Positions 49,137 to 55,985 of a DNA stretch of 64,000 nucleotides are shown here, piece by piece; the stretch's first letter is position 1, and each line of letters starts with the position of its first letter. Location: positions 1,743,545 to 1,807,544 of the forward strand of contig NZ_LT596208.1 in NCBI RefSeq assembly GCF_900092335.1, in the 5' to 3' direction. The notes below the pieces were generated by a model. That model was not told where the DNA came from. It did no database searches and saw only the letters and a program-made list of their open reading frames with translations. Origin of the DNA: Corynebacterium phoceense. Lineage in GTDB: Bacteria; Actinomycetota; Actinomycetes; Mycobacteriales; Mycobacteriaceae. The position numbers and the translations under genes are program-made.

Positions 49137-49982
49137 TTACTTTCCTTCCTTCTTGGCGGCGCGCGCCTTTGCGCGCTCCATCAGCTCTTCACGGGTGGTG
49201 TGACCCTTGCGCGGGTCATTAGCTGCGGCCATTGCAGTCTTGACCGCGGCGGTGCCGGCATTACCAAGCTCGGCCACCGGGATGGTGCCCTTCGGCAGCG
49301 CACCCCAGGTCGCGGCGTACTGGGAGGGGTCGCGTGCCAGGTCCGCCAGCGCCTTAGCGCGGTTCGCTGCTGCGAAGCGTCCCTCTGCGATGGCCTGGTC
49401 GACGGTCTTCTCGTGCTCCTGGGCTTCGAGCTTCGCCTGCGCCTCCGCAAAATTAGCGGCCACGCGGTTGAGGTAGTCGAAGTGCGCGCGCGGCACGGTC
49501 ACCACATCAGCAGTGTCCGCGGTGTTGCCCGGCGCGGCCGGGGCCTCCGTCGGCGCCGGGCCCGTGGTCTGCTCGCCATCATCGGACAGCGAACGGACAG
49601 CGAATCCCGCAGCAACGTCAACCGTGCCGTTAACCGACACAGTCACCTCGGCGGTCGCACCGACCTCCACGCCGGACGGCGCGGTCACTGTCAGCACACC
49701 GGTGGCCTCGTCGACCGTGACTGTCCAGCCGTCAGGTGCGGTCTTCACGGCGAAGGTCAGGCCGAGCGCGCCGGCGTTCGCGGCCGTCGGCTCGCCATTC
49801 TCGCCGCCGATGACCGGCTCGACAACAACCTTCTCGGTCGGCGCAATGGCAGTGGCCTCCGGGTAGGTCACATCAACCTCGCTCGAGACCTGAACGACCT
49901 CATTAAAAAAGCCGGAGAGTGCGTCGCGCACATCCTCCGGCTTCTTGCCCAGCTCCTGGGCAAGCTGGTCCAAGATATTCAT
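49137..49982 (-). CDS. Nested in-frame scaffold protein (internal start)
   Basis: Within the protease gene, ATG 49982 is preceded by AAAGGGGAAAAG and begins MNILDQLAQELGKKPEDVRD right after the protease linker. Separate initiation here would give a 281-residue scaffold without the protease, as with lambda C/Nu3. The RBS and domain boundary coincide well, but expression is unproven. Confidence 0.5.
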   Translation of the reverse strand: MNILDQLAQELGKKPEDVRDALSGFFNEVVQVSSEVDVTYPEATAIAPTEKVVVEPVIGGENGEPTAANAGALGLTFAVKTAPDGWTVTVDEATGVLTVTAPSGVEVGATAEVTVSVNGTVDVAAGFAVRSLSDDGEQTTGPAPTEAPAAPGNTADTADVVTVPRAHFDYLNRVAANFAEAQAKLEAQEHEKTVDQAIAEGRFAAANRAKALADLARDPSQYAATWGALPKGTIPVAELGNAGTAAVKTAMAAANDPRKGHTTREELMERAKARAAKKEGK

Positions 49983-50618
49983 CTTTTCCCCTTTCTGCCC
50001 ATTGCTGGGCGTCGTTGATTTCTCCCCCGATTCCGACCGGGTGGAGGGCGGTGGCGGTGCCGCCGCCCGGTTCGCGTACTTGAATCGTGCGACCATCCGC
50101 GACTGCAGGTTGGTCGCAGCAGCGGGTGCCTTGGCGTCCTCGATGGCGTCGACCAGGCCGGCGTCAAGTGCTTCCTGCGCCGTGTACCACGTCTCGGCGC
50201 GCATGCGCTCGAGCCATTCATCTGCAGTGCCGCCGGCGCGGCCGGCGTAGATGTTGGCGATTTTCACGTCCTGGCGCTCGAGGTCAACGCGGGCCTTCTC
50301 GAGGTCGTCCGCGTTTCCCCACCAGTCGGCGGAGGCCTTGTGAATCATCAGCTCCGCATTAGGCCGCATGATGACGCGGCCGCCGCAGCCCACGGCGATG
50401 AAAGACGCAGCCGAGCAGGCCCGCGACTCCACCACGACAGTCACCTCACCGGCGTAGCCGCGCAGTGCGTTGAGAATAGCGATGCCCTCATAGACCTGCC
50501 CTCCGTCGGAGTTGATGCGGACGCGGATTGGCTCGCCGTTGAAGCTGGCGAGCTGCTTTTCAATACCGGCGGCGGTATTGTCGCCACCGATGTCGCCGTA
50601 AATCATTAGGTCATTCAT
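49137..50618 (-). CDS. Head maturation protease (ClpP-like) fused to scaffold with Rib-like domain
   Basis: A 493-residue protein. Residues 1-170 are a ClpP/S14-like protease: the SDGGQVYEGIAILNALRGY block, catalytic Ser69 (RACSAASFIAVG) and His93 (ELMIHKASAD). After a Pro/Ser linker an internal Met213 with its own RBS begins a scaffold-like part (MNILDQLAQELGKKPEDVRD). Residues about 248-335 form an Ig/Rib-like module (TYPEATAIAPTEKVVVEPVI; PDGWTVTVDEATGVLTVTAP). The C terminus (400-493) is a helical scaffold. Portal stop and this start overlap; GGAGGTGA precedes the ATG. It processes the prohead during assembly. Confidence 0.85.
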   Translation of the reverse strand: MNDLMIYGDIGGDNTAAGIEKQLASFNGEPIRVRINSDGGQVYEGIAILNALRGYAGEVTVVVESRACSAASFIAVGCGGRVIMRPNAELMIHKASADWWGNADDLEKARVDLERQDVKIANIYAGRAGGTADEWLERMRAETWYTAQEALDAGLVDAIEDAKAPAAATNLQSRMVARFKYANRAAAPPPPSTRSESGEKSTTPSNGQKGEKMNILDQLAQELGKKPEDVRDALSGFFNEVVQVSSEVDVTYPEATAIAPTEKVVVEPVIGGENGEPTAANAGALGLTFAVKTAPDGWTVTVDEATGVLTVTAPSGVEVGATAEVTVSVNGTVDVAAGFAVRSLSDDGEQTTGPAPTEAPAAPGNTADTADVVTVPRAHFDYLNRVAANFAEAQAKLEAQEHEKTVDQAIAEGRFAAANRAKALADLARDPSQYAATWGALPKGTIPVAELGNAGTAAVKTAMAAANDPRKGHTTREELMERAKARAAKKEGK

Positions 50619-51933: not shown

Positions 51934-53500
51934 GGCTTACACCTCCCTTCCAGTCTTGCTTTGTCTTAAACCGCGGCAACGTGCCGCGGGGATTCACCGG
52001 AGCTTCCTCGACCGCCTTCCGTGCGCCAAGCTCCGATTCAGCTGCGTAGCGTCCAAGGCCCCACACGGCAAGCGTCATCGCCACGAGCGCTGGCACTCGG
52101 CCGGAGTACCGGTCAATGCACTCGAATTTCTTGCCCTCGTCGCGCAGCGTTGCAAGCTGCAGCTCCTGACCCCACGACCCGGACACGTCATGGGTGAGCG
52201 TGCCGTCGCGCACTGCCTGGCGCGTAACCGCGTACGCGGACGCGACGTTCGCACCAGTGGCGAGCACCGGCTCAATGTTGACGAGCATGAGCTCCGGGGC
52301 GAGCACGTTTCCATGCCAGTCCCTATCCAGCACTACCGCGGCCAGGCCGAAGCCGTCGCCGCGCAGCTGGTCACGCAGCCGGACAATCTTGCCCACCACA
52401 TCCGCGACAGTAAATCCCGCCATCTCATCGACCAGCTGCACATGTATACCACGTGTGGTGCGTCCCGCGACCACCATGGCGATATCCTCGCCGTCGGCGG
52501 ACACCTCTACGGCGAGGACAGCCTCGCCGACCGCGACATCACGCTCAACCGCACCGGCGGCCCACCGGTCAAGCGGCAGCACCGGCACAAAATCGGACCG
52601 GTCATTATCGCGCGGGTACCAGTCCCCCGCAGCCAGCGTCTCAACCATGAAAACCTTGCGCAGGACTTCCGAGTTTTTTGCCGACTCCGCGTCGGACTCA
52701 ATGTCGACGAGCTGCGCGCCGGGGCCCTCATCGACGAGCGACGGGTTGCATCGCGCCCACGTCTCCTGAAGAAAAGGATCATCACCCTCGGCGGGCGACC
52801 ATTCTTTGAAGAGCGTGCGCTTCGCACCGTCAATCGCGGCCCACCGCTTCGCCGAGAACACCGCGCCGTGCGCGTGCTCGGAGCGGTTCACCGGCGACGA
52901 GATGAAGATGATTTGCGCGGACTCACGAGCACGAATCAACTTGCCCAGCGCGGCAAAGATTTCATTCGGAAGGTCAAAGCACTCGTCAAGAATCAACGTG
53001 TCAACCGACAAGCCGCGGCCAGTCTTCGCCGTGCGCGTGCGAAAAAGCACCGTCGCATCATTCGGGAAGGTGATGTTCTCCTTGCCGTTGGTCTTCCCCT
53101 TGTGAGGAATACCCAGGCCCTCATCCTCCCACCAATACAACAGGTCAGGATTGGACTCGATGACCTCCCACAGGCGACTCTGCGCGTCAATGGCGGTGTC
53201 CATGAAGTGGGCTGTGTGAAGAATCGTCTTCTCTTCGAAGAGGTAGATGCCGGCAAGCTCACGCGCGACGAGCACCTCGCCCTTGCCGTTCTGGCGGGCC
53301 ACAACGGTGACCACCTCGCGCGCGGCCCAGCGGCCTTTCGCATCGGTGCGGCACATATCCCGCAGCAGGTCTTCCTGCCAGGGGTACAGGGTCAGGCCGC
53401 ACCAGCGGGCGAATTCCACCGCCTGGTCACCGCGCGCCGTATCCCCATCGGGAATGAGAGAGAGTCGTGGCTCCTGGACTCCGAGCAAAGTCACAGCCAC
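51923..53500 (-). CDS. Terminase large subunit
   Basis: A 525-residue packaging ATPase/nuclease starting at GTG 53500 (GGAGGTGA upstream). The Walker A-like motif is ARQNGKGE (about 68-75), Walker B is TLILDECFDLP with D172/E173, and the FISSPVNRSEHAHG coupling motif follows. The C-terminal nuclease domain carries LAVEVSADGEDIAMVV and GFGLAAVVLDRDWHGN, with acidic residues that bind metal. It lies between the small subunit and portal. The nearby HNH gene is typical of cos-packaging phages. Confidence 0.9.
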   Translation of the reverse strand: MAVTLLGVQEPRLSLIPDGDTARGDQAVEFARWCGLTLYPWQEDLLRDMCRTDAKGRWAAREVVTVVARQNGKGEVLVARELAGIYLFEEKTILHTAHFMDTAIDAQSRLWEVIESNPDLLYWWEDEGLGIPHKGKTNGKENITFPNDATVLFRTRTAKTGRGLSVDTLILDECFDLPNEIFAALGKLIRARESAQIIFISSPVNRSEHAHGAVFSAKRWAAIDGAKRTLFKEWSPAEGDDPFLQETWARCNPSLVDEGPGAQLVDIESDAESAKNSEVLRKVFMVETLAAGDWYPRDNDRSDFVPVLPLDRWAAGAVERDVAVGEAVLAVEVSADGEDIAMVVAGRTTRGIHVQLVDEMAGFTVADVVGKIVRLRDQLRGDGFGLAAVVLDRDWHGNVLAPELMLVNIEPVLATGANVASAYAVTRQAVRDGTLTHDVSGSWGQELQLATLRDEGKKFECIDRYSGRVPALVAMTLAVWGLGRYAAESELGARKAVEEAPVNPRGTLPRFKTKQDWKGGVSRAA

Positions 53501-53509
53501 TCACCTCCA

Positions 53510-53821
53510 CTAGACGGCCTTAAATCCGCCAAACTTCTCACGCCGCGGGCGCTCAGCACCCTTATGCTCGCCAAAAAGGTCAGGCCGATCCTTCACCCAG
53601 CCACGCAGCTCCGCCGAGGCGCGCTTCTCGATTAACAACGCCGGGTGCTCCACCGGAAAGCCCTTACCGTCGTCGATGATGGTGCCCTCGCGCTCAATCG
53701 CTTCGCGGGCGTCCTGCAGGCGAAGAGTTAGGCCGGCCACTGTCTCCACGACCGACAGATCAAATTCCGAGAGCTCGCGCCCGGCGCGGATACGGTCAAC
53801 CTCCACAGCAAGTCGAGCCAT
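53510..53821 (-). CDS. Terminase small subunit (P27-type)
   Basis: A 103-residue helical protein. The ATG at 53821 follows GGAGGTGATTGTG. It has a central helix pair (SVVETVAGLTLRLQDAREAI) and a Lys/Arg-rich C terminus ending in EKFGGF. The NPALLIEKRASAELRG-like block (here HPALLIEKRASAELRGWVKD) is the hallmark of P27-family small terminases. It binds the packaging site and recruits the large subunit, whose gene starts 9 bases downstream. Confidence 0.82.
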   Translation of the reverse strand: MARLAVEVDRIRAGRELSEFDLSVVETVAGLTLRLQDAREAIEREGTIIDDGKGFPVEHPALLIEKRASAELRGWVKDRPDLFGEHKGAERPRREKFGGFKAV

Positions 53822-53892
53822 CACAATCACCTCCCCAAATTTTGGGCATGAAAAAAGCCCCACCCAAAAGCGAGGCAAAAATCAACCAAAAA

Positions 53893-54672
53893 CTAGCCAG
53901 CATCCAACATGACAGACCCCATACGAATCGGAGCCGTATTTCGCTCAACACCCGGCAACCCAACAACCGAACGCGACGGGTCAACCGACCGCAAACCAGG
54001 CATCACACGCCCGAAGCTGCGGGATGCCGGAGCCTCCTCAAAAGCGGCCCGCACAAAGTCCTCAAACATCTCGCACCGCTCCACATCATCCGTCATCTCA
54101 AACTGCTCGCAACGAATATTTTTGTTCAAGTTCATCGAGCTGGTGATGCACACATCCCACTCCTCATTCCGAATAAGCACGAATTTTGCGTGCGTACGAA
54201 TCTGGATGAAAGAATCAGGGCCGAAAATCTCCCCGACCTCATGAACACCAGCCTGCCCCTTCTTCGCGCGGCCGGAGTCCATGACGAAACGAATAGAGCG
54301 AATCATGCCGCAGTCCCGAAAATTCTCCGCAGCCTCAAGGTCATAAAAACCAGCAGACCACGTAGCAATAGTCACATCAGCCGGACCCGTAATCTCCAGC
54401 GTCGCCTGCACGAGGTCAATCAAAGAGAACTGACCATAAGTCAGACCGAGGATGTCCATGCCATGGTCGAACCCGGCGATCGTCTGCCGCGCGGCGCCAG
54501 CGCGAGAAAAACGCGCCTGTACGCGACGATTAGTCCGCGCATCAGCCGGCCGCAGCTCCGAAAAGCCAACAGCTTCGGTCGCCAAGTGCTTCGCCTGAGC
54601 CTTCGTCAACTCCACACCATGCGCAGCAGCCAACTTCTCGAGCTCACGCTGGAAAGTACTAAGATTACTCAT
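53893..54672 (-). CDS. PLD-superfamily-like phage protein of unknown role
   Basis: A 259-residue protein between the HNH and terminase genes. Residues 95-190 look like half of a phospholipase-D/Nuc fold: a strand with DVTIATWSAGFYDLEAAENF, then IQIRTHAKFVLIRNEEWDVC with His161-x-Lys163, and the SSMNLNKN motif (178-185) equivalent to GSANLT. The Asp normally four residues after Lys is absent. A single HKD set suggests a dimeric Nuc-like nuclease. The ATG at 54672 with GGAG was chosen over GTG 54681. A hairpin upstream and an AT-rich gap make it look like an inserted cargo gene. Confidence 0.62.
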   Translation of the reverse strand: MSNLSTFQRELEKLAAAHGVELTKAQAKHLATEAVGFSELRPADARTNRRVQARFSRAGAARQTIAGFDHGMDILGLTYGQFSLIDLVQATLEITGPADVTIATWSAGFYDLEAAENFRDCGMIRSIRFVMDSGRAKKGQAGVHEVGEIFGPDSFIQIRTHAKFVLIRNEEWDVCITSSMNLNKNIRCEQFEMTDDVERCEMFEDFVRAAFEEAPASRSFGRVMPGLRSVDPSRSVVGLPGVERNTAPIRMGSVMLDAG

Positions 54673-54702
54673 ATCAATCACTCCGTTTTAGTGGTTGGTC
54701 AC

Positions 54703-54733
54703 GCCACCGGATAGCGCCAACTATCGCGGTGGC
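54703..54733. terminator. Hairpin upstream of the PLD-like gene
   Basis: GCCACCGGATAG pairs with CTATCGCGGTGGC (one bulged base) around CGCCAA. CTTTC follows on the plus strand. It could be a terminator or part of the packaging region. Confidence 0.5.
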
Positions 54734-54926
54734 CTTTCACCCTATCTTACCAGCTCAAAGCGTGTTTTCATAGCCCAAAAGGCCACAAATTCCATAACAT
54801 TCAAGTGCATATATCAGCCCATGCGACTTAACCCACAGGAATAAATGCAGGTCGCGGGGAGAGAGACCATGAGAGCAAGCCGAGGGGGGAGTCATCTACC
54901 CATGAGCCAAATATTATAGCCACCCC
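54734..54926. other. AT-rich intergenic region, candidate packaging (cos) region
   Basis: About 190 bases without a gene between HNH and the PLD-like/terminase genes. It contains a purine tract (GCGGGGAGAGAGACCATGAG) and GAGGGGGGAGTC, but I cannot mark a cos overhang. In cos phages that encode an HNH next to terminase, cos lies in this position. Confidence 0.35.
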
Positions 54927-55268
54927 CTAGTCTGCAACTAGACCAATCACCCGGCCTCCCGGCCAGTCAATCGGCGACGCTACCCCGACCTGCAACTGGT
55001 ACCAGCCGGGACCGTGTTTCACCCACTCATTGGCGATGGCACGGTTGCACCGGCGATGCAGCAGGCGATTCGCAAGGCGTGTCTTATCCCCTTCTTCGTG
55101 GTCGGCTTCCAGGGCCGCGCCGTCGAAGTTCCGCCCGGCCTCGCGATACATCGGCTGGCCGCAGTATTCGCAGGGTGTGCCGTCGATGAGGTTGTAGATG
55201 AGCTGCTCGCGGGCCTTGGCGTGATTCCCGCCGTATCCGCGCTGGGCGGTGGTGAGCTTCGTGTCCAT
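54927..55268 (-). CDS. HNH endonuclease
   Basis: A 113-residue HNH protein starting at ATG 55268 (GGGGGTG upstream). Zinc ligands C33/C36 (CEYCGQPMY), the catalytic D56-H57 (LEADHEEGDK) and the second metal pair H71/C74 (LLHRRCNRAIAN) are all present. HNH proteins next to terminases assist cohesive-end cutting during packaging in many siphophages. It is the first gene of the late operon, with a promoter and hairpin just upstream. Confidence 0.85.
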   Translation of the reverse strand: MDTKLTTAQRGYGGNHAKAREQLIYNLIDGTPCEYCGQPMYREAGRNFDGAALEADHEEGDKTRLANRLLHRRCNRAIANEWVKHGPGWYQLQVGVASPIDWPGGRVIGLVAD

Positions 55269-55280
55269 GGTCACCCCCAT

Positions 55281-55314
55281 AAAACGCGAAATACCCCGGC
55301 GCGTGCCAGGGTAT
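55281..55314 (-). terminator. Hairpin at the early/late boundary
   Basis: ATACCCCGGC (55291-55300) pairs with GCCAGGGTAT (55305-55314), one G-T pair, four-base loop; TTCGCGTTTT follows on the minus strand. It probably ends the early minus-strand transcript, and it also lies in the leader of the late mRNA. Confidence 0.6.
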
Positions 55315-55331
55315 AAGTTGTCGTCGCGTCG

Positions 55332-55340
55332 ATTATATCA
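55332..55340 (-). promoter_or_regulatory. Candidate late promoter (extended -10)
   Basis: On the minus strand TGATATAAT gives a TGn-TATAAT extended -10. No good -35 is visible. The predicted start is about 55,325, just upstream of the hairpin at 55291-55314 and 57 bases before the HNH start. Confidence 0.45.
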
Positions 55341-55397
55341 CGTTTGTGGGGAACCGCTAGTCACAGCGTTATACGGAATCCCATGCACTGTGTTCCA

Positions 55398-55985
55398 TTA
55401 CGGCTGCCCTACCAAGCTGGCTAGGCATTCGGACAGTAGGTAGCCGCCTCTCCCGTTGGGCATGATCTCGCGGGTAATGTAGCCAGCTCTCGCCCAGCCA
55501 CGGACCATGTCTGCGGTGACGTGATGGCGGCGGGCGCGGAGTTGGCGGGCGATGGCCTCGGCGCCGAGGCGGCGTTCTTCCGCGTCGGCTACCTCGCGGG
55601 CGGTGCGTGGCCGGCAGTGACGTCCGATGACGCGCACCTGGTGCTCGAGCTCGTCGACGAGATCGCTTGCCCAGTCGAGCTCCGAGATGGCTTGGGCGTG
55701 GAAGGCAAGCTTCCGGCACAGGTCGATGGGTCCGGTTTCATCGTCTCGGATGTGGACGCCGGTATCGCCGAGGGCGTTGAAAGCGACCTCGCGCAGGAGC
55801 GTGGATTGTTCAAGCCAACAGGCGACGTAGAGCCAATTGCCGGGTGATTGCGGTCCCGGCGCAGGCTTCATGGTGCGGACCTCGGGCGGTGCGGGACGTG
55901 AGTATTTGAGGCTGTCGAGTTCGCGGTAGAGGTTGGCGAGGTCACGCGCCAGATGGCGCAGATGTTGCTCGTCTACTTGGCTCAT
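55398..55985 (-). CDS. Phage regulatory protein with MerR-like C-terminal HTH
   Basis: A 195-residue protein starting at ATG 55985 (ATGA overlap with the upstream nuclease gene). The N-terminal 140 residues are helical (HLRHLARDLANLYRELDSLK; SDLVDELEHQVRVIGRHCRP). The C terminus (AIARQLRARRHHVTADMVRG WARAGYI) is a MerR-type helix-turn-helix. It is the last gene before the late promoter, so it could be the switch activating late genes, as seen for position-equivalent genes in other phages. A longer frame to 56240 is antisense-like. Confidence 0.68.
   Translation of the reverse strand: MSQVDEQHLRHLARDLANLYRELDSLKYSRPAPPEVRTMKPAPGPQSPGNWLYVACWLEQSTLLREVAFNALGDTGVHIRDDETGPIDLCRKLAFHAQAISELDWASDLVDELEHQVRVIGRHCRPRTAREVADAEERRLGAEAIARQLRARRHHVTADMVRGWARAGYITREIMPNGRGGYLLSECLASLVGQP

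Follow-up and report, generated by a model that had tools for sequence, protein, structure and literature searches.

What does a PLD-like protein do in a place where phages usually keep their packaging genes? The question is raised by a 64,000-nucleotide stretch of the Corynebacterium phoceense genome (the window), in which a preliminary description had placed such a protein between an HNH gene and the terminase genes. The open reading frame and the HNH, TerS and TerL genes were located as claimed. Read along the minus strand, HNH (55280-54927) comes first and is separated by a 245-nt gap from the PLD gene (54672-53893); terS (53821-53510), terL (53500-51923), portal and head protease follow. 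PLD and the packaging genes have the same orientation. The HNH endonuclease gene, which lies across the predicted cos site from PLD, matched PHROG 1808 (E 1.3e-26), with a Pfam HNH score below the cut-off. By its profile matches, terS encodes a small terminase of the P27/Terminase_4-like kind (PHROG 34315, E 8.5e-43; PHROG 34561, E 7e-20; Pfam Terminase_4, 24.3 bits and slightly short of the 24.7 cut-off), and terL was assigned to PHROG 9. The frame of the ClpP-type head protease (49137-50618, minus strand) carries a weak match to Long Rib in its C-terminal half (PF18957, E 6e-4, below cut-off). Prophage relatives are represented by phi16 and by C. macginleyi and C. lemuris, and a 47-kb IMG/VR record holds an identical PLD protein.

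The PLD frame, which stops at 53893, encodes 259 amino acids from an ATG at 54672, with an SD-like GGAG 8 nt 5' of it, or 262 from the GTG at 54681 that mechanical ORF calling selects. We number residues from that GTG; H164 and K166 here are therefore the H161 and K163 of the preliminary description. The same description had the gene bracketed by a hairpin and AT-rich sequence. This also held: a hairpin lies at 54690-54737, and GC content is 51% in the HNH-PLD gap and 48% in 53850-53949, against 61% for the 48-60 kb region. A terminator scan placed a terminator-like hairpin with a T6 run between the PLD stop and terS (53857..53876, minus strand), and found 6 terminator-like sites in 2 kb where 2.5 were expected. 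This element is not a general one: in some relatives the end of PLD and the TerS frame overlap.

The protein belongs to a known, uncharacterised phage family, PHROG 16945 ('endonuclease'), whose profile it matched at E 2.3e-102 over positions 2-252 of 252. At E≤1, the only further match in Pfam and PHROG was to PLDc_2 (PF13091), at 14 bits and E 0.047 against a gathering score of 27 bits; neither an HNH domain nor a specificity domain was recognised. Sequence searches of the PDB returned nothing useful (the second gave a single chance match, E 0.5), and a scan of five PLD proteins against NCBIfam assigned none to a family. An AlphaFold (AF2) model was built from a 26-sequence alignment (pLDDT 83.4, pTM 0.72). 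Its VIA-align Z values were 11.0 for SauUSI (7clg), 10.6 for PLD4, 10.5 for both Helicobacter pylori NucT (6ehi) and vaccinia F13, 10.2 for mouse Zucchini, 10.0 for Salmonella Nuc (1byr), 9.6 for NgoAVII R (4rct) and 9.0 for BfiI (2c1l), with 137-146 residues aligned to SauUSI, NucT, Nuc, NgoAVII R and BfiI. The comparison with Nuc and BfiI that had been proposed at the outset thus returned a predicted PLD fold. Because the match to PHROG 16945 covers the full profile and is joined by this predicted fold, the PLD assignment is not a chance one, despite the sub-threshold PLDc_2 score, and on the model we place the window protein in the PLD superfamily.

Fold does not prove nuclease activity, because polyphosphate kinases and non-nuclease PLD folds also match: the top PDB rows in Foldseek were polyphosphate kinases (E 4.6e-5), followed by Zucchini (E 3.2e-4), and the fold matches also include FAM83 and lipid synthases. 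The latter are PLD folds without nuclease function, and several of the matched PLD folds are non-nucleases. The HAK and SSMNLNKN motifs of the preliminary description are both present, and H164, K166, N172, N184, N188 and E192 are invariant in all 26 aligned sequences, the window included. Position 182 is S or T in 26/26, which gives an [ST]xN downstream of the HxK pair as in Nuc and NucT; the position of the HKD Asp (171) is occupied by T, R, S, E, Q, H or C and never by D. The active site of BfiI is made of H, K, N and E, with no HKD Asp there. Values of dN/dS ranged from 0.027 to 0.148 in 7 close PLD pairs (three pairs that include the window, near saturation, gave 0.12, 0.14 and an undefined value), and the gene is under strong purifying selection. 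Taken on the model, the product is a PLD-fold protein with a predicted nuclease role and very likely a nuclease.

NucT and Nuc share with the window protein the PLD fold in a single HxK domain. They differ in that no sequence match to them was found, in that the HKD Asp is not conserved in the window protein, and in context, which is phage packaging here; the role of NucT is in DNA uptake. BfiI, NgoAVII R and SauUSI resemble it through the PLD nuclease domain of restriction enzymes. These enzymes are longer (347-806 residues) and have further domains, and such domains were not recognised in the window protein.

Closer relatives are found in phages. A tblastn search returned 55 phage records with a PLD homologue (37 from Arthrobacter, 16 from Gordonia, phi16 and one faecal contig), in which annotated homologues are labelled hypothetical, endonuclease or, mostly, NucT-like nuclease. 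The PHROG 16945 proteins of Gordonia phages (Betterkatzvirus) and of Arthrobacter phages (Coralvirus, Galaxyvirus), like gp1 of phi16, are homologues with 35-54% identity in the alignment, have the active-site residues of the window protein and are encoded 5' of TerS, as it is. The window protein differs in its prophage origin and in an N-terminal extension common to the Corynebacterium group, and its gene directly precedes terS, whereas BetterKatz has three small genes between the two. The function given to the family comes only from annotation. The preliminary description knew of no characterised homologue in this position, and we too found no characterised homologue in the open-licence literature; homologues annotated 5' of TerS are nevertheless common, as these records show.

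Pattern scans yielded 31 PLD loci in viral contigs and 5 in genome contigs. After removal of 12 redundant or partial loci, a TerS profile that had itself been built from PLD loci placed TerS (E≤1e-3) 3' of PLD, in the same orientation, in 29 of 32. The distance from the PLD stop to the TerS open frame was below 80 nt in 26 of these 29 and 693, 346 and 185 nt in the others (L002, L037 and L046). There were three exceptions to this order: L006, where profile search recognised no TerS; L048, where (as in L053) the PLD frame is cut short by an early stop and no TerS matched; and L041, where the gene after PLD has a weak match to a small terminase (PHROG 309, E 0.0012) next to one to a DNA-binding PHROG at 0.0016, and where TerL belongs to PHROG 2, against PHROG 9 in the window. 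Two distant types of TerL occur near PLD across the loci. In two Arthrobacter phages the distance from the end of the PLD-TerS pair to the right genome end is about 4.0 kb (Kepler, whose TerL is at the left end) and about 2.7 kb (Abidatro). PLD is therefore tied more closely to TerS than to TerL or the genome end, and all 37 PLD-bearing Arthrobacter records also have this TerS. The linkage may reflect common descent of the cassette instead of a common step.

Two candidates were set aside. L017 was a spurious match to a membrane-like protein. In L012 and L024 a 361-codon frame joins PLD to a DNA-binding domain (PHROG 645 at the N-terminus), which we did not take as evidence of a fusion; the frame is possibly open by chance, since it contains both a promoter-like element and the leader hairpin (L024:404-449). 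As a separate observation, PHROG 645 ('Rnase E') matched a small protein directly 5' of TerL (L028:10497-10862) and the frame before PLD (L024:38-400). The label is doubtful, and these may be DNA-binding packaging proteins.

Is the gene then part of the packaging machinery? Relatives of the window TerL (46-67% identity in the best segment) show HNH, a short gap, TerS and TerL without PLD. We examined 88 TerL loci, drawn as 9 from one search and the best 80 of 490 from another; 21 had this TerS family, and PLD was present in 4 and absent from 17 of these (redundant records included). Searching whole records found PLD in 0/9 records of this TerS-bearing kind whose TerL locus had none, which may be fragments and two of which share lineage, while the positive control was found. 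Since TerS occurs without PLD in these 17/21 loci and in these nine records, PLD is not an essential packaging part, and, contrary to the alternative that the preliminary description allowed for, the gene does not belong to a packaging core conserved in all relatives. The closest TerL over its full length (L061, 55%) is itself without PLD. A TerL tree with 17 rows, of which 9 have PLD and 8 do not, requires 5 changes in PLD presence, at least 3 of them forced by well-supported branches; PLD presence is not more clustered on it than shuffled labels are (179/500 as low).

Within close clusters the picture is different. PLD was present in 37/37 Arthrobacter records with TerS at ≥60% identity, and the 14 of 51 Arthrobacter records that have this TerS and show no PLD all have a TerS less than 60% identical to that of Kepler. 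In Gordonia it was present in 16/16 records covering at least 80% of the terS-terL region, a count that leaves out the other 13 of 29 records, which matched near portal only. PLD is thus patchy overall and fixed within close clusters. Because relatives with and without it exist, its position is informative, though not unique.

The position can also be described relative to the genome ends. The ends of phi16 were mapped by run-off sequencing and have 14-nt 3' overhangs (PMC5506516). The phi16 record starts 203 nt before annotated ORF1, which is the PLD gene, and that of BetterKatz 138 nt before gene 1; the annotated PLD start of phi16 overlaps the leader hairpin discussed below, and the real start is therefore probably about 50 nt further on. 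The left-end motif of phi16 (CTCAGG, then TCTCTCC) can be recognised by eye in the gap that separates HNH from PLD, both in the window and in relatives. Where relatives lack PLD, the motif is likewise seen by eye in the gap separating HNH from TerS, and HNH-cos-terS-terL would therefore be complete without PLD. From eye alignment with the mapped phi16 cos and the gaps of relatives, we place a predicted cosN, the 14-nt 3'-overhang stretch, at 54874..54887 and a predicted left genome end at 54873, both on the minus strand. The prophage is accordingly predicted from its sequence to be cos-type, with PLD between cos and terS. At the right end of phi16, beside cos, gp101 ('putative ATPase'; KY250482.1 57765-57992) contains an HNH stretch akin to the window HNH (E 4.2e-16).

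The hairpin 5' of PLD proved to be a subject in its own right. It is a leader stem-loop (54690..54737, minus strand; paired part 54703-54733), called from covariance-model matches and covariation, with a 7-bp stem, a single bulged C, a 5-bp stem, a 6-nt loop and then GUGACC (an RUGRCC-type tail); the fold z for 54660-54745 is -2.46. A covariance model made from four copies gave 11 strong copies in PLD loci, those four included, a set picked by score from 40 sources. In these, 95% of cells pair, 9 of 12 pairs show double-sided changes and slid partners pair at no more than 45%; four of five covariation measures exceed all 500 shuffles, and the fifth was reached in 7/500. Among 29 distinct new matches, which were aligned to the model in a way that favours pairing, 94.5% were paired, double changes occurred in 10/12 pairs and slid partners paired at no more than 57%. 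For the flanks we used 47 hairpin matches, consisting of the 11 seeds and 36 of 60 genome-search matches, the omitted 24 being mostly weaker or partial. An extended -10-like element, TGG-TAAGAT, can be read by eye at 54744..54752 (minus strand), and TANNNT occurs in the 22 nt 5' of the hairpin in 23/47 matches against 8.5 in shuffles; a sigma-70 consensus scan called no promoter at this element. The predicted fold also has a short CACU/AGUG stem (54679..54693, minus strand), whose loop and 3' arm contain the SD-like GGAG. A second stem of at least 4 bp was found in 38/47 matches against 18.7 in shuffles (sd 3.1), and of at least 5 bp in 20 against 8.8 (sd 2.4); a mean-MFE test of the region 3' of the hairpin was not significant (z -0.9).

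The distribution of the hairpin separates it from PLD. It was found in 46/301 genomes of the family at E≤1e-3 and in 29/296 genomes of a sample of the phylum, Actinomycetota, at E≤1e-5, the window genome being counted in both; copies are present in L149-L164, L179-L198 and L087. In 34/47 matches it is followed by an SD and by a start codon with an open frame of 60 codons or more, against 2.4 at random places, and by eye the following genes include integrase-, HNH- and antirepressor-like starts (the one checked, in L087, is HNH). At PLD loci, the covariance model gave a weak score in L019 (E 0.06) and no clear match 5' of PLD in L022, L050, the BetterKatz group or the Arthrobacter types; similar stem-loops can be seen by eye in L019, L022 and BetterKatz, and in L028 the leader stands 470 nt 5' of PLD and precedes two small frames. 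Among the TerL relatives without PLD that were searched, none had a hairpin match at E below 0.2. We rejected the ideas that the hairpin regulates PLD specifically or is a substrate of PLD: of 30 hairpin loci from the 301-genome search, scored for PLD within at most 3 kb, only the window's own has PLD. It is not a terminator, as no T-run follows it, and it is not ESAS/SAS, as it differs from the cluster K mycobacteriophage element. The likeness to SAS/ESAS is that these are repeats 5' of start codons in actinophages; the difference is that the authors see little support for pairing of an ESAS mRNA hairpin, whereas the window element covaries strongly (PMC3203893). Rfam had no match in 53400-55400 at E≤5 and, at E≤0.5, only tRNAs in 14 hairpin loci, and the open-licence literature yielded no description of the hairpin. 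Judged from these sequence matches, it is a predicted leader of genes that look like those of mobile elements across Actinomycetota and not a part of PLD. The GUG at the hairpin base also opens a four-codon frame, GUG ACC AAC CAC UAA (54688-54702, minus strand), and ATG or GTG is found at that fixed offset in 27/47 matches; the frame is possibly a leader peptide, or merely conserved RNA sequence.

In the reading that we prefer, and that we hold at about even confidence, the PLD protein is an accessory, TerS-linked DNA nuclease for late phage DNA handling. We favour it because the gene is optional yet strongly constrained, is linked to TerS across different packaging modules and has an active site like that of PLD nucleases; catalysis, DNA substrate, timing and TerS contact are inferred. 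By analogy, the enzyme would have a single HxK...N...E active site and would probably be a homodimer that, like NucT and BfiI, needs no metal. It would act on phage DNA late in infection, coupled to TerS, and would cut or trim single-stranded, branched or cos-proximal DNA so that TerS and TerL could start or finish packaging efficiently. The Nuc-type nuclease proposed in the preliminary description is upheld to this extent, by the PLD fold, the nuclease-like active site and the slot beside cos and terminase; its suggestions of exclusion and anti-competitor defence found no specific support.

The main rival, which we think unlikely, is that PLD is a selfish homing or marker-exclusion endonuclease that cuts cos-terS of PLD-minus phages and is copied in by repair. 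Its optional presence, with at least three changes forced on the TerL tree, and the existence of PLD-fold restriction endonucleases (BfiI, NgoAVII) fit such a history, but there is no presence/absence polymorphism in the close Gordonia and Arthrobacter clusters, where PLD is fixed, purifying selection is very strong and no specificity domain was recognised. To our knowledge, PLD is also not among the known homing nuclease folds. The setting does suit homing: the region 5' of the terminase in HK97 relatives is described as a hotspot of homing-type nucleases (PMC10448857), and the HK97 HNH nuclease in that hotspot also promotes cos cleavage (PMC9410871). That nuclease, gp74, resembles the window case in having its gene beside cos and terminase (PMC9410871, PMC10448857), and differs in being HNH, whereas the window nuclease is PLD with an HNH gene as a separate neighbour. 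PLD could instead assist cos cleavage by supplementing the HNH protein, much as gp74 aids TerL (PMC9410871), a reading that we regard as improbable. The annotated PLD gene is indeed near the left end in phi16, with its mapped cos, and in BetterKatz, and in the window, as in relatives, the predicted cos separates HNH from PLD. Against this, an HNH neighbour of cos is found in Corynebacterium-type phages whether they carry PLD or lack it (the HNH part of phi16 gp101 is one case), so that PLD does not replace HNH, and in Kepler and Abidatro PLD is kilobases away from the genome end.

Readings outside packaging are less probable still. Being accessory, and flanked in the window by a leader and a terminator-like element, the gene could serve in a defence expressed from the prophage, acting by superinfection exclusion or breakdown of incoming DNA, and PLD nucleases are known in restriction systems. 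The window protein had no PADLOC match at E≤1, however (one of the five PLD proteins scanned had a weak one, MkoB, E 0.039), and the gene is on the packaging-gene strand and tied to TerS as a defence gene would not need to be; these results lend no specific support to the superinfection exclusion or competitor killing that had been suggested for it, and we give defence little credence. Homing, if true, would also produce the anti-competitor effect, and it is only as such a by-product, or in a putative defence role, that an exclusion or anti-competitor effect is possible, with a correspondingly slight likelihood. Least probable of all, in our estimation, is a role unrelated to packaging, in which host DNA or RNA is degraded late in infection (nucleotide salvage, mRNA turnover). 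Nucleases like NucT can lack specificity, and Zucchini, a PLD-fold RNase, is among the fold matches, but this leaves the TerS linkage in 29 of 32 loci unexplained.

Returning to the accessory, TerS-linked nuclease, we note that nucleases which home or which aid cos cleavage are kept by phages in the slot next to cos and terminase (PMC10448857, PMC9410871). Our open-licence literature search found no characterised PLD packaging nuclease. It is conceivable, though we rate it as less likely than not, that no PLD-fold enzyme had been connected with phage packaging sites before this one, as far as literature and database searches reach; the enzyme would be either TerS-coupled near cos or homing at the cos-terS hotspot. 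In the window and its Corynebacterium-type relatives the gene stands behind a leader RNA that is widespread in actinobacteria and absent from Rfam. An optional PLD that keeps with TerS while TerL and the neighbours change is a natural experiment on accessory nucleases in packaging. The leader RNA is the most unexpected by-product of the analysis and merits separate study; if transcribed, it would be a new structured-RNA class marking actinobacterial mobile-element genes.
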